From Desulfitobacterium dichloroeliminans LMG P-21439 (GTDB lineage: Bacteria > Bacillota > Desulfitobacteriia > Desulfitobacteriales > Desulfitobacteriaceae), in assembly GCF_000243135.2 (NCBI RefSeq), contig NC_019903.1, positions 906,001 to 970,000 of the forward strand: DNA of 64,000 nucleotides, given 5' to 3'. Each line of letters opens with the position of its first letter. The stretch's first letter is position 1. Shown here piece after piece: positions 26,388 to 30,663 of this stretch. The notes below the pieces were generated by a model, which saw only the letters and a list, made by a program, of their open reading frames with translations, was not told where the DNA came from and made no database searches. Position numbers and translations under genes: made by a program.

Positions 26388-26542
26388 TTAGATGGGATTA
26401 GCTAATCTTGCCCCTAGCTCGAAGGCTTTTTGGCATTCCTGCGGAAACTGCTCCTGTCTAACTTGAGCCTTATGCTTCGCATCGAACCTTGAGGCCTCAT
26501 ATTTTGTATAGTCATCAAATTGGTAGGTATCTGTAGAAAGTA
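26388..26542 (-). pseudogene. C-terminal part of a flavodoxin-family gene split by the transposition unit
   Basis: On minus, 26537-26388 encodes 49 residues starting STDTYQFDDYTKYEASRFDA and ending AFELGARLANPI, then a stop. This matches the C terminus of NADPH-dependent FMN-reductase/flavodoxin-family proteins of the iron-sulfur flavoprotein type. Joined to 30663-30166 with one copy of the 5-bp duplication it continues in frame after residue 166 (EYLL), giving a 215-residue protein. The longer open frame to 26633 is chimeric: its first 31 residues come from inserted DNA and have no ribosome site. Confidence 0.88.
26538..26542. repeat. Left 5-bp target-site duplication (AAGTA)
   Basis: AAGTA here is identical to 30166-30170 at the other end of the unit. 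The matching copies lie exactly at the two break points of the flavodoxin reading frame. Confidence 0.85.
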
Positions 26543-26556
26543 CCCTGATGTTGCGT
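26543..26556 (+). repeat. Alternative right-end inverted repeat of the transposition unit
   Basis: CCCTGATGTTGCGT keeps the terminal CC and the inner CGT of the element's ends and directly abuts the target duplication. Confidence 0.7.
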
Positions 26557-26560
26557 AATA

Positions 26561-26580
26561 AATTCCTGGACGCAGGAATT
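26561..26580. repeat. 20-bp inverted repeat in the captured DNA
   Basis: AATTCCTG and CAGGAATT form perfect 8-bp arms around GACG, starting five bases inside the unit's far end. It belongs to the donor locus; role unknown. Confidence 0.5.
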
Positions 26581-26604
26581 TGTGACCAGTCTACTTCGTT
26601 ACCC

Positions 26605-26650
26605 AAACAAGAAGTGGAGTTATGATTTTTCATAACTCCACTTCTTGTTT
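26605..26650. terminator. Strong hairpin in captured DNA upstream of the hydrogenase
   Basis: A 21-bp perfect stem (AAACAAGAAGTGGAGTTATGA and its complement) with a TTTT loop and a T-run on plus. It is probably the terminator of the gene that preceded the hydrogenase at the donor locus, carried along with the cargo. Confidence 0.8.
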
Positions 26651-26705
26651 TTTGAATGATTAGCCCTTCTTTGGGGGAAAATATTCCTTTAAGGAGGGTT
26701 ATGAT

Positions 26706-27833
26706 GTGCTGAACCGTCGAGAATTTCTTAAGCTGGTCGTCAAAGGAGCCATTCTTGGCAACTTTATCAGCTTAGTAACCCCCGAATTAGAAAAAGCCTT
26801 AGCTCAAGGAGATATTAAAAAGAAGCTACCCATTCTGATGGTAGAGACGGGAACCTGTACCGGAGATAGTATCTCTTTAGATAATATTTGGACACCGACA
26901 CTATCCGATATTTTTACCAACATCACTGAATGGCGTTATGACTGGACCATGATGCAAACCCAAGGGGAGTCAGCCTATAAGGTCTTATTGGATATGGAAG
27001 AAACTCTAGCCCATGAATTCATACTTATTGTCCAAGGATCTATCGCGCGTAGAGATAATGGTCATTATAATTACGCCGGCCTCGAAAACGGCCAAATGGT
27101 CACAGGCCTGGACCTGGTTCGTAGGCTGGGTTTAAAAGCTAAATATATCGTGGCCATAGGTAATTGTGCTACTTATGGGGGGCCTGCCTCTGGGTATCCT
27201 AACCCGTCCCAGAGTACCGGTACACAAACGATCCTCCCCGAACGCCGAATTATCAATGTCTCCGGTTGCCCTGCCCATCCGGATTGGATTATGGGTACCC
27301 TTCTGCATTTGGCTCTATATGGGGAGCCTGAACTAGAAAAATTCGGCCGTCCCAAAATGTTTTACGGAGAAACCATTCATAACAACTGCCCGCGACGTCG
27401 TTACTACGACCAAGGTATCTTTGCTACAGATATCGGTCAGAAGGAATGTCTTTACCGCGTAGGCTGCAAAGGACCCGTCACCTATGCCGACTGCCCTATC
27501 CGTCGCTGGAACGACCGCTACAACTGGCCAATCGGCTGTAACTCTCCCTGCATCGGCTGCACCGAGCCCGGGTTTCCTGATCTTATGGAGCCTTTTACCA
27601 ATCATTTTTCCGACATCACCTTCCCCGGAGGAACCCGCGAAACAACCGATCGAATCGGTAGAGGGGTCTTAGGCTTAGCTACCCTAGGGATTGGCGGACA
27701 TTTTCTAAGCTCACTTTATAAAGGACGTCTTCATCGGAATCTAATTCAATCGACGAACCAGGTGAAGAAAAAGATCCAGCTGAAGAAAGCCAAGACGTAT
27801 CATACCTATCGGCCCAAGAAATCTCAGCAATGA
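26706..27833 (+). CDS. [NiFe] hydrogenase small subunit (group 1, Tat-exported)
   Basis: A 375-residue iron-sulfur subunit with a twin-arginine signal (RREFLK, then a hydrophobic stretch). Later cluster ligands are in place: GNCATYGG and SGCPAHPDW for the proximal cluster, the distal His/Cys set from ETIHNNCPRR to ECLYRVGCKG, and DCPIRRW with CNSPCIGC for the medial one. The first motif reads CTGDS where most have CTGCS, so the second proximal ligand is Asp. The C terminus has a short hydrophobic segment and a basic tail. GTG at 26706 follows GGAGGG. The gene is complete but lies inside the transposition unit, next to a truncated large subunit, so no working hydrogenase is made here. Confidence 0.92.
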   Translation: MLNRREFLKLVVKGAILGNFISLVTPELEKALAQGDIKKKLPILMVETGTCTGDSISLDNIWTPTLSDIFTNITEWRYDWTMMQTQGESAYKVLLDMEETLAHEFILIVQGSIARRDNGHYNYAGLENGQMVTGLDLVRRLGLKAKYIVAIGNCATYGGPASGYPNPSQSTGTQTILPERRIINVSGCPAHPDWIMGTLLHLALYGEPELEKFGRPKMFYGETIHNNCPRRRYYDQGIFATDIGQKECLYRVGCKGPVTYADCPIRRWNDRYNWPIGCNSPCIGCTEPGFPDLMEPFTNHFSDITFPGGTRETTDRIGRGVLGLATLGIGGHFLSSLYKGRLHRNLIQSTNQVKKKIQLKKAKTYHTYRPKKSQQ

Positions 27834-27888
27834 CCAAAAGTGATGCCGCCAATCGACATGGGCGGTTGATTTTACAAGTGAACGAGGA

Positions 27889-28509
27889 GTGAGCTTACTG
27901 GAGAAGAAGGTTGTTTTTCCGTTTACCCGAATCCACAATCCGATGTTGGTAGAGGCCCATCTAGAAAACGGAGTGATCCAAGACGCCTTGATCGCGGATA
28001 CCCTCTACCGAGGCTTTGAGCAAATTCTCGAAGGTCGATCCGCTTTTGATATGCCTTATTATACGCAGCGCATCTGCGGCATCTGCTCCTCAGTTCATGG
28101 GGTGGCGGCGTCTTATGCAGTGGAGCAAGCCCTGGGGATGGCCGTTCCACCGAACGGATTGGTCCTCCGCAATCTTATTATGGGTAGTGATTTCCTGCAG
28201 AATCATCTCCGTCATTTCTACCTTCTGAGCATGCCTGATTATTTCAAAGGCCCCGACATCCCCCCCTTCCTACCTCATTTGGAGGGAGATATTCGCCTTA
28301 CTCCCCAAGAAGATCAACGTATGACTGATCATTATTTCCAAGCCATCGAAGTTTCTCGGTATGCACATGCGGCGTTCGGAGTTTTCGGGGGCAAGGCTCC
28401 CCATGGGCACGGGATTGTACCCGGAGGGTGTACCATGCACGTGGATGCCGATAAAATCAACCGCTATCGCGGTTATCTTATCACTATCCTCGAGTTTATT
28501 AATAATGTA
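27889..28509 (+). pseudogene. [NiFe] hydrogenase large subunit, truncated by the IS element
   Basis: Codons 1-207 of a group 1 large subunit are intact, including the N-terminal nickel-ligand motif RICGICSSVHGVA and the GGKAPHGHGIVPGG loop. The homology stops at EFINNV exactly where the IS right end (CCTAAATTCC) begins; a further 19 codons to the stop at 28569 are IS sequence. The C-terminal DPCxxCxxH half, about 300 residues or more, is absent, so the product cannot bind the NiFe centre. GTG at 27889 overlaps the GAGGAG site; CTG at 27898 is a possible alternative start. Confidence 0.92.
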
Positions 28510-28523
28510 CCTAAATTCCACGT
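28510..28523 (+). repeat. IS right inverted repeat (IRR)
   Basis: CCTAAATTCCACGT, directly adjoining codon 207 of the hydrogenase large subunit. Confidence 0.88.
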
Positions 28524-28583
28524 GTGTTTTTTATTAGCTTCAAAAATCACTATTTCACGAAGAATTTAGACTGCTTCTCACAC

Positions 28584-28613
28584 ATTGTAACATTATTTAC
28601 AACCACCTTTCAA
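28584..28613 (-). promoter_or_regulatory. Outward-facing promoter at the IS right end
   Basis: On minus, TTGAAA (28613-28608) and TACAAT (28589-28584) are 18 bases apart and fire out of the element through IRR. This is the promoter known to express captured beta-lactamase genes in ISEcp1 units. Here the cargo genes run the other way, so it would yield antisense RNA to the hydrogenase genes. Confidence 0.8.
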
Positions 28614-28716
28614 TCATTTTTGATAAATCATTGATTTCATCTTTGCTGCAATGATACTTAATAAACTCTGCAAGTTATCCACAGAGCAACACTCAATTTT
28701 ATTGATGATATTCTTA

Positions 28717-29979
28717 TTATACCAGACATTTTTCATACACTCCCTTGTACGGATAGTTTTCCGACAACTTCATGATTACATATCTTGCGGTTTTGATTAT
28801 TTTTGCTGCAAGAAATACATACTTCAAACGAAAGGTCTTTATTTGCTGTCTGTATTCTGAAGAGTCCAAGGAATCAAACTTGAACAACAAAAATAGGTTA
28901 TATGAAAGCATCATCATTTGAAACACGGCTTCATTCGCCCAAAATGACTTTAGCAAGAGATGACCCACCGCCATGTCGTATTTGGCTTCTTTGATATAGT
29001 TTTCAGCATTACCACGCTTTTCATAGTATATAACTACTTTTTCAGAAAGCAAGGTAGTATTTGTTACAAAGAAAAAGTAGTCGTATTCGGAACCTTCTAA
29101 AAGTGATAATTGTGCTCTTTCTTTTTCTGGTTTCAGTACGCGAGATACGACAAATCTTCTGTCTTTTTCCCATTTAACTAATTTTGTATACAGTTCTGTA
29201 GTTTCTCTACCTTCTTCTCCTTTAACGAATACAATTGATGAATTCGTTGCTTGTGAGGTGAGTGTAGAATAACTTTTGGCTTTAATTAAATATTTGCATC
29301 CAAGAGATTCTATCGTTTCGATAATTTTTTCATCAAAGTAGCCACTATCCATTCGAAATAAAATTTCTAAATCGTCTGATTTGATGTTAGCAACAATTTC
29401 TTTGATCATTTCCGCAGCACCGTTTGCAGTGTAAGTATTGCCACTTCTTACAAATCCGGTAACATATGCTTTTAATTCGTCGCAAAATGCAAATTGGATA
29501 TTGTAGCATCGGTTTCCCAGTTTCTTAGGATTATATCCTTTTGACGCACCTTCTTGATGACCTTCTACGTTAATTACACTACTATCAATATCAATCGTAA
29601 TGGATGTCAATTTACTTTTAGTGAGCAGTTTTTTAAAGACTTTAAAATTAATGTCTCTAAACATTTGGGTTGTCTTGAAGTTGAAGTTTCCTAGAAACCG
29701 TGACACTGTTTCAGGTTCTTTTACGGAAATATCAAACTCGTTGACGAGGGGATCATTTTGAAGTAGCTTTAGACGTTCTAACTTATCAATGCCAATGAAG
29801 TGACCGCAGAGCATGGTCTTTATATGATTCATCTTGATTTTATTTGTTGAGTCATTATCAAATACGAGGTCATTTTCAATAAAATCAAAAATCCCATTGC
29901 TTTTTGCATTCTCAAGGAGCAGAAAAAGACCTGCATTTGATGTTAGATTCTTAGCTTTGAAATCAATTTTATTAATCAT
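28717..29979 (-). CDS. tnpA: IS1380-family transposase (ISEcp1 TnpA-like)
   Basis: A 420-residue DDE transposase. The IS1380 signature around the first catalytic Asp is visible as TIDIDSSVINVEGHQEGASK followed by GYNPKKLGNRCYN, the second as FRMDSGYFDEK, and the C-terminal Glu region as YYEKRGNAENYIKEAKYD. The frame is intact from ATG to stop, so the element may still be active. Downstream of the stop about 200 bp remain to IRR, containing the outward promoter. Its base composition is much more A+T-rich than neighbouring genes. Confidence 0.95.
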   Translation of the reverse strand: MINKIDFKAKNLTSNAGLFLLLENAKSNGIFDFIENDLVFDNDSTNKIKMNHIKTMLCGHFIGIDKLERLKLLQNDPLVNEFDISVKEPETVSRFLGNFNFKTTQMFRDINFKVFKKLLTKSKLTSITIDIDSSVINVEGHQEGASKGYNPKKLGNRCYNIQFAFCDELKAYVTGFVRSGNTYTANGAAEMIKEIVANIKSDDLEILFRMDSGYFDEKIIETIESLGCKYLIKAKSYSTLTSQATNSSIVFVKGEEGRETTELYTKLVKWEKDRRFVVSRVLKPEKERAQLSLLEGSEYDYFFFVTNTTLLSEKVVIYYEKRGNAENYIKEAKYDMAVGHLLLKSFWANEAVFQMMMLSYNLFLLFKFDSLDSSEYRQQIKTFRLKYVFLAAKIIKTARYVIMKLSENYPYKGVYEKCLV

Positions 29980-30151
29980 AATTAGAACCCCTTTTTACTA
30001 CTTTTCTTACTATTATTTTACCATATATCGAGTCATAAAAGCTGATAATTTAACATATTTTTGAGCACTTTTCTTTCACCCAATGGGTGAAAGCTGAATT
30101 TCGAAGGAACGCATATTTATCAAGGCTTTGATTATGCTTTTTGAAGTACTG

Positions 30152-30165
30152 ACGTAGAATCTAGG
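30152..30165 (-). repeat. IS left inverted repeat (IRL)
   Basis: Read on minus, CCTAGATTCTACGT, directly abutting the AAGTA duplication and codon 166 of the flavodoxin-family gene. Confidence 0.88.
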
Positions 30166-30170
30166 AAGTA
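30166..30170. repeat. Right 5-bp target-site duplication (AAGTA)
   Basis: Identical to 26538-26542. Five bases is the duplication length reported for ISEcp1 insertions. Confidence 0.85.
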
Positions 30171-30663
30171 GATATTCTGTAGGTCCATTTAGGAGTTCTA
30201 GACTGCGCGCGTTGCCATTATATAAGAATTCGTAACCCATCTGCTGTGAATTGCTTTCCGGGAGATTCATTGTATAGATAAATCCTGAAGCTATCTTGCC
30301 TTGAAATACGCTACGTTGGCCTTCATTATAGCTTAGGTTAGAGAAATACAACCGTTCTAAAAAAGAGCGCATTTCTCCGGTAACATTGCCGAAGTAGATT
30401 GGGGAACCCAGCAACAGGACATCACTTATGAGGATTTTCTCTAAGAGAGGGGTAAGATCATCTTTTAAGGCGCAATGGCCGAGATACTTAGTGTTCCTCT
30501 GTTTACATATAAAGCAACTGATACAGCCTTTGAAGTTTAAGTCATAAAGATGAACCAATTCGGTCTCCGCACCGACTGATTGAGCTCCCTTGAGCGCTTC
30601 TTGTAAGAGTGTTGCAGTATTCCACTTTTTTCGTGGACTACCATTTACCGCGATGACGTTCAT
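30166..30663 (-). pseudogene. N-terminal part of a flavodoxin-family (FMN reductase/iron-sulfur flavoprotein) gene
   Basis: 166 codons from ATG at 30663 encode a flavodoxin-like fold: MNVIAVNGSPRKKWNTAT is the phosphate-binding loop, GCISCFICKQ the Cys-rich loop seen in iron-sulfur flavoprotein-type reductases, and LLLGSPIYFGNVTGEMRSF the FMN-binding loop. At EYLL the sequence runs into the IS left end; the open frame continues 29 codons into IS DNA to 30076. The missing C-terminal 49 codons lie at 26537-26388. The gene is therefore broken; the truncated chimera would lack the last helix. Confidence 0.9.

Follow-up and report, generated by a model that had tools for sequence, protein, structure and literature searches.

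An ISEcp1 unit carrying hydrogenase genes and bounded by a substitute right end, with its donor locus, in the chromosome of Desulfitobacterium dichloroeliminans

CTX-M genes are mobilised chiefly by ISEcp1, an element that spreads ESBL antibiotic-resistance genes, and the requirements of its transposase at the right end are only loosely defined. The window, which is the whole 64,000 bp stretch of Desulfitobacterium dichloroeliminans DNA analysed here, carries a copy of ISEcp1 whose own right end lies inside a longer duplicated-target segment together with hydrogenase genes. Was the far border of this segment chosen by the transposase, or did it arise in some other way beside an ordinary insertion? 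The chromosome that carries the window is a single contig of 3,624,449 bp, and the relevant features of the window are as follows.

26388-26542, minus strand: 3' part of an interrupted gene for an NADPH-dependent FMN reductase-like flavoprotein; the joined flanks give one frame.
26538-26542: left copy of the target-site duplication, AAGTA, directly before CCCTGATGTTGCGT.
26543-30165: whole ISEcp1 transposition unit, 3,623 bp, differing by 1 bp from the donor copy and likewise from the second product.
26543-26556, plus strand: substitute (alternative) right end CCCTGATGTTGCGT; exact border common to the second product (L015), and within native DNA in the donor (L016).
26606-26649, plus strand: terminator-like 20 bp hairpin with a T tract, in cargo DNA upstream of hupS.
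26706-27833, plus strand: hupS, [NiFe] hydrogenase small subunit (TIGR00391); cargo, complete frame.
27889-28509, plus strand: 5' part of hupL, [NiFe] hydrogenase large subunit; cargo, cut by ISEcp1 in the donor.
28505-28509: ATGTA adjoining the unused IRR; the donor's target duplication, found on both sides of ISEcp1 in L016.
28510-28523, plus strand: true IRR of ISEcp1, CCTAAATTCCACGT; internal, intact and unused.
28510-30165, minus strand: ISEcp1 (IS1380 family), 1,656 bp, 1655/1656 identical to plasmid ISEcp1 copies.
28584-28613, minus strand: promoter-like site TTGAAA-18-TACAAT, a consensus match only, reading outward from ISEcp1 into the cargo.
28717-29979, minus strand: ISEcp1 transposase, 420 aa (NF033539, PF13701).
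30152-30165, minus strand: IRL of ISEcp1, CCTAGATTCTACGT; the unit's terminus is at 30165.
30166-30170: right copy of the target-site duplication, AAGTA, directly after IRL.
30171-30663, minus strand: 5' part of the interrupted flavoprotein gene, recognised from its open reading frame, the joined frame and the orthologue in a congener.

The element is identified as ISEcp1 by its length of 1,656 bp, its imperfect 14 bp inverted repeats and its DNA, which matches at 1655 of 1656 positions the resistance-plasmid copies L095 and L129-L137, most of which carry the annotation 'IS1380-like element ISEcp1 family transposase'. The transposase scores 329.6 bits against the IS1380 model NF033539 (cut-off 180), also matches PF13701, and is identical at 420/420 residues to plasmid and genome copies, including those in Enterobacterales. 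A first guess placed the end of the element near 30060 and was dropped, as the sequence common to all copies extends to 30165.

The remainder of the unit is 1,967 bp of hydrogenase DNA (26543-28509) containing hupS and the 5' part of hupL. IRL is terminal, the intact IRR is internal, the substitute end lies opposite, and the 5 bp duplication surrounds the whole; the sequence-only reading of this locus had already described the true IRR as internal and flanked by ATGTA (28505-28509), distinct from the outer AAGTA (26538-26542 and 30166-30170), and both points hold. When the unit and one AAGTA are taken out, a single 215 aa FMN-reductase-like frame is restored on the minus strand, and its orthologue in the congener G002 is uninterrupted, with 74% identity over residues 1-212. 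Position 26543 is therefore a true insertion border.

A search of the organism's own genome recovered the hup segment three times in the chromosome and ISEcp1 15 times. At one of the three hup loci, L016 (genome 606000-625000), ISEcp1 lies within hupL with ATGTA on both sides, a plain insertion between true ends, and the ATGTA in the window is therefore the donor's old duplication, carried along. The hup donor occupies about 613.6-617.3 kb of the genome; removing ISEcp1 from it completes the hupL frame, which is followed by a cytochrome-like frame, and hupL is uninterrupted in the related genome G003. Left of the position equivalent to 26543, the sequence in L016 is not that of the window flank; it aligns straight across the border position with G003 and G002 at 83-87% identity. 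The substitute end sits in DNA that adjoins the IRR side of ISEcp1 in the donor and is native in both related genomes. No complete copy of the hupSL pair was seen in this genome, and a search for the hup cargo in plasmids gave no match.

Two further features of the donor region may be noted. In the donor, hupS is one A short in a homopolymer (matching window position 26817) and is frameshifted, while both products keep an open frame; the frameshift may be either real decay or a sequencing error. In addition, some 180-230 bp of apparently non-coding DNA across the substitute end (around 26543-26640), upstream of hupS, is conserved at 83-87% in three species, and the genes that flank it are less conserved, at 73-79% (L016 compared with G003 and G002). 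This stretch is possibly an unnamed regulatory or RNA element; an Rfam search with it gave no match.

The third copy, at L015 (genome 3472000-3490000), has the same hup segment with a left border identical to that at 26543, and is flanked by a different duplication, TACTT. Removal of this unit restores a 276 aa frame, which we call HAD-like from reading of its sequence rather than from a family search. The three copies of the segment differ only by single-base indels in homopolymers (one base in 3,623 between the window unit and the donor segment), from which we conclude that the events are recent. An attempt to order the two products by their sequence differences failed: both single-base differences lie in homopolymers, so that the order of events is not readable.

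These loci point strongly to the following course. ISEcp1 first made an ordinary insertion into hupL, in the hup operon at its native place (L016), duplicating ATGTA. Its transposase then skipped the element's own right end and paired IRL with a 14-mer resembling IRL that lies 1,967 bp beyond that end, upstream of hupS; and the whole 3,623 bp stretch moved to new targets with 5 bp duplicated each time, namely the flavoprotein gene with AAGTA in the window and the HAD-family-like gene with TACTT at L015. Since the donor still carries the full segment, the net outcome is a copy, which may have been made by replication or by repair from the sister chromosome. We put at about 0.96 the probability that the window unit was formed by ISEcp1 from the hup donor using a substitute right end. 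The donor, both products, their exact borders and duplications, the restored frames and, in two related species, native sequence running across the border position are seen directly; the choice of the end by the transposase in one step, and the route of copying, we infer. Transposition itself is read from the sequence, and we find nothing of weight against it. The mechanism is a known one, ISEcp1 having been described as pairing IRL with weakly related right ends and producing 5 bp duplications (PMC12116815, PMC12589106, PMC4609946), and the present case fits it in every testable respect. The literature refers to such events as 'one-ended', but 'substitute right end' is the better description here because both termini are exact.

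Two other origins of the border can be set against this evidence, and both are extremely improbable. In one, which the sequence-only reading had itself named as the case that would count against it, ISEcp1 made an ordinary insertion beside resident hydrogenase genes and a later deletion created the border at 26543. The internal position of the true IRR is the sole point for this account, which has to contend with the AAGTA pair, with a target gene that continues in frame beyond the unit, with an identical border next to another duplication at L015, and with a native hup operon elsewhere that is conserved at that place in related species; given a donor with native DNA across the border and a second product with a different duplication, we consider deletion excluded. 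In the other, the hup segment owes its new position to composite transposition or to homologous recombination between copies of ISEcp1. Fifteen copies could indeed recombine, but each unit has a single IS copy, the left border at 26543 has neither IS sequence nor an ISEcp1 remnant, and exact 5 bp duplications flank the whole unit. The donor locus, the second product and the intact orthologue of the target gene instead bear out the earlier proposal that the transposase skipped its own right end.

A more balanced question bears solely on how the second product arose, and either answer is compatible with use of a substitute end by ISEcp1 at the outset: the second hup unit could have come from the finished unit transposing once more, the substitute end now serving as an ordinary end. 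The identical borders agree with this, as does the single end common to four units of another cargo (cargo A, below) that has no donor left in the genome; moreover, in a published experiment only 2/13 ISEcp1 transfers kept the structure of the donor element, so that frequent independent reuse of an end is not expected. On the other hand few sites in the donor flank resemble IRL as closely as the hup end does, which makes a repeated choice plausible, and no sequence difference tells the two histories apart. We hold it equally probable that the second product derives from the donor and that it derives from the first product.

Beyond hup, the same pattern recurs for two more cargoes, which use three further ends. 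Eight of the 15 ISEcp1 copies are units with a substitute right end and an exact 5 bp duplication, and the seven others are plain insertions (the donors L016 and L020, and five more), likewise with 5 bp duplications. Four distinct substitute ends occur among the eight units, two of them used repeatedly. The true IRR is intact in all 15 copies, and its skipping is therefore not due to damage. Cargo A consists of a Crp/Fnr-type regulator and a small membrane protein; four units end at CGGAAAATCTATGC (duplications AGGTA, TATCA, TATAA and TAATA), and a shorter unit at L018 (genome 2015000-2023000), inserted in a gene for a 699 aa Fe-S protein-like product, has the nested end TTGAATTTCCATAC and the duplication TCATA. 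Cargo B comprises a MarR-type regulator, cbiD and a cobalamin riboswitch. Its donor, L020 (genome 1057000-1065000), is a plain insertion with the duplication TATGT, and its product, L023 (genome 504000-512000), is a 3.64 kb unit with the end TCCCTTATCTTCCC and the duplication TATTA, inserted into an IS3-type transposase-like gene. The chromosome thus offers four substitute right ends for one element, all with exactly defined borders, and for two of these ends the original donor is still present.

No donor of cargo A, either ISEcp1-free or as a plain insertion, was found in this genome, nor was the cargo found in other genomes of the same genus. Its 1,430 bp (L017 1865-3294) have a counterpart of 99.9-100% identity, free of ISEcp1, in the order-level relative G038 (locus L153, G038:C1:1403000-1416000), where the sequence runs unbroken past the substitute end and past the point at which ISEcp1 is inserted; two further genomes from the genus of that relative match in parts, and a search of G038 for ISEcp1 found none. 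These matches indicate that cargo A, with its Crp/Fnr-type regulator, came from outside by horizontal transfer, and recently.

What do the ends have in common? The window end CCCTGATGTTGCGT matches IRL at 9/14 positions and IRR at 7/14, as first counted. It had been taken for a chance sequence, a view that does not stand: of 3,987 donor-flank positions only 7, among them the hup end, reach 9/14 or more against IRL (p = 0.002), and this end occurs in two products. Against IRL the cargo A end matches at 8 of 14 positions and the L018 and L023 ends at 5 each, the latter two not being significant alone. For comparison with published ends we extracted three from public loci (CTX-M group 1, 10/14; CMY-2, 6/14; a Vibrio unit, 8/14, all against IRL) and took one quoted in PMC12116815 (4/14). 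For seven ends combined p is about 3e-7 against IRL and 6e-5 against IRR, with the ends taken as independent and nearby positions as the null. Judged by these comparisons, similarity to IRL helps a sequence to serve as a right end. The terminal CC and inner CGT, proposed earlier as a clue to the minimum requirement, are indeed shared by the window end, but CGGAAAATCTATGC, TTGAATTTCCATAC and TCCCTTATCTTCCC are without both. The terminal G:C pair of a substitute end is called crucial in a passage of PMC12116815 that cites earlier work. The window and cargo A ends both start with C, in keeping with this, but the first base of the end is T in L018, in L023 and in the CMY-2 unit L130; the pair is therefore frequent but not absolute. 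Neither terminal CC, inner CGT nor the terminal G:C pair is strictly required.

The units resemble those in which ISEcp1 (ISEc9) carries blaCTX-M, blaCMY or blaOXA-181, with the IS matching at 1655/1656 positions, the same IRL, 5 bp duplications and substitute right ends. The CTX-M group 1 units examined also reuse one end, CCTGGGACCTACGT (with a two-base variant in L129), at three targets, TCATA, TATGA and TACTT. The present units stand apart in that their host is a strict anaerobe, their cargo is housekeeping DNA of the chromosome and includes no resistance gene, and a single chromosome has kept both donor and products. A close parallel is ISEcp1-blaOXA-181 in Klebsiella pneumoniae MS6671, where one chromosome holds both primary and derived units and the substitute ends differ between them (IRRalt1 and IRRalt2; PMC4609946). 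However, the primary site in MS6671 is already a unit, whereas the hup and cbiD primary sites are plain insertions between true ends, so that the initial passing over of the true IRR can be seen here. The 36 kb ISEc9 transposition into Acinetobacter (PMC12116815) likewise joined IRL to a poorly matching right end with a 5 bp duplication, but with a very long cargo, a 4/14 end and laboratory transformation. With donor and second copy in the same chromosome, each step of the transposition can be traced in the sequence itself. A literature search found no paper naming ISEcp1 together with Desulfitobacterium. What is new is the host organism, the cargo and the survival of donors beside their products; the mechanism is already known. 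The interest of the locus lies in its complete donor-product sets and in the question of where ISEcp1 comes from.

On that question, ISEcp1 and its units are present here in a strict-anaerobe lineage without resistance cargo. ISEcp1 copies with 99.8-99.9% DNA identity occur in Alkalibacterium, Asaccharospora and Proteiniclasticum (L054, L061, L084 and L090), and relatives at 90-95% (L063-L069 and L094) are mostly in Clostridia, which suggests a reservoir of the element in anaerobes. ISEcp1 may tentatively be seen as native to anaerobic Clostridia and their neighbours, where it would already package chromosomal genes into units and pass them between organohalide-respiring genera, independently of its role with resistance genes. 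The near-identical copies, the relatives in Clostridia and the match of a cargo to the DNA of an order-level relative favour this; an identity of 99.94% equally allows a recent arrival from Enterobacterales, and we lean slightly away from a native origin.

Among other features of the units, the putative outward promoter TTGAAA-18-TACAAT would be antisense to hupL in the window unit. Its hexamers are those of the outward promoter described for ISEcp1. The genes of cargoes A and B are oriented such that it would drive them, which is also the orientation of the bla genes in ISEcp1-bla units. Frames read through the right end of ISEcp1 at L017 2583-3335, L020 4918-5463 and window 27889-28569, either fusing IS-derived residues (MIFEANKKHTWNLG...) to cargo proteins or extending the cut hupL into the IS. 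Finally, in an ISEcp1 unit on an Edwardsiella plasmid (L058), TAATC precedes IRL and GATTA follows the substitute end. This is an inverted duplication, as expected if the flank had been inverted during or after transposition.
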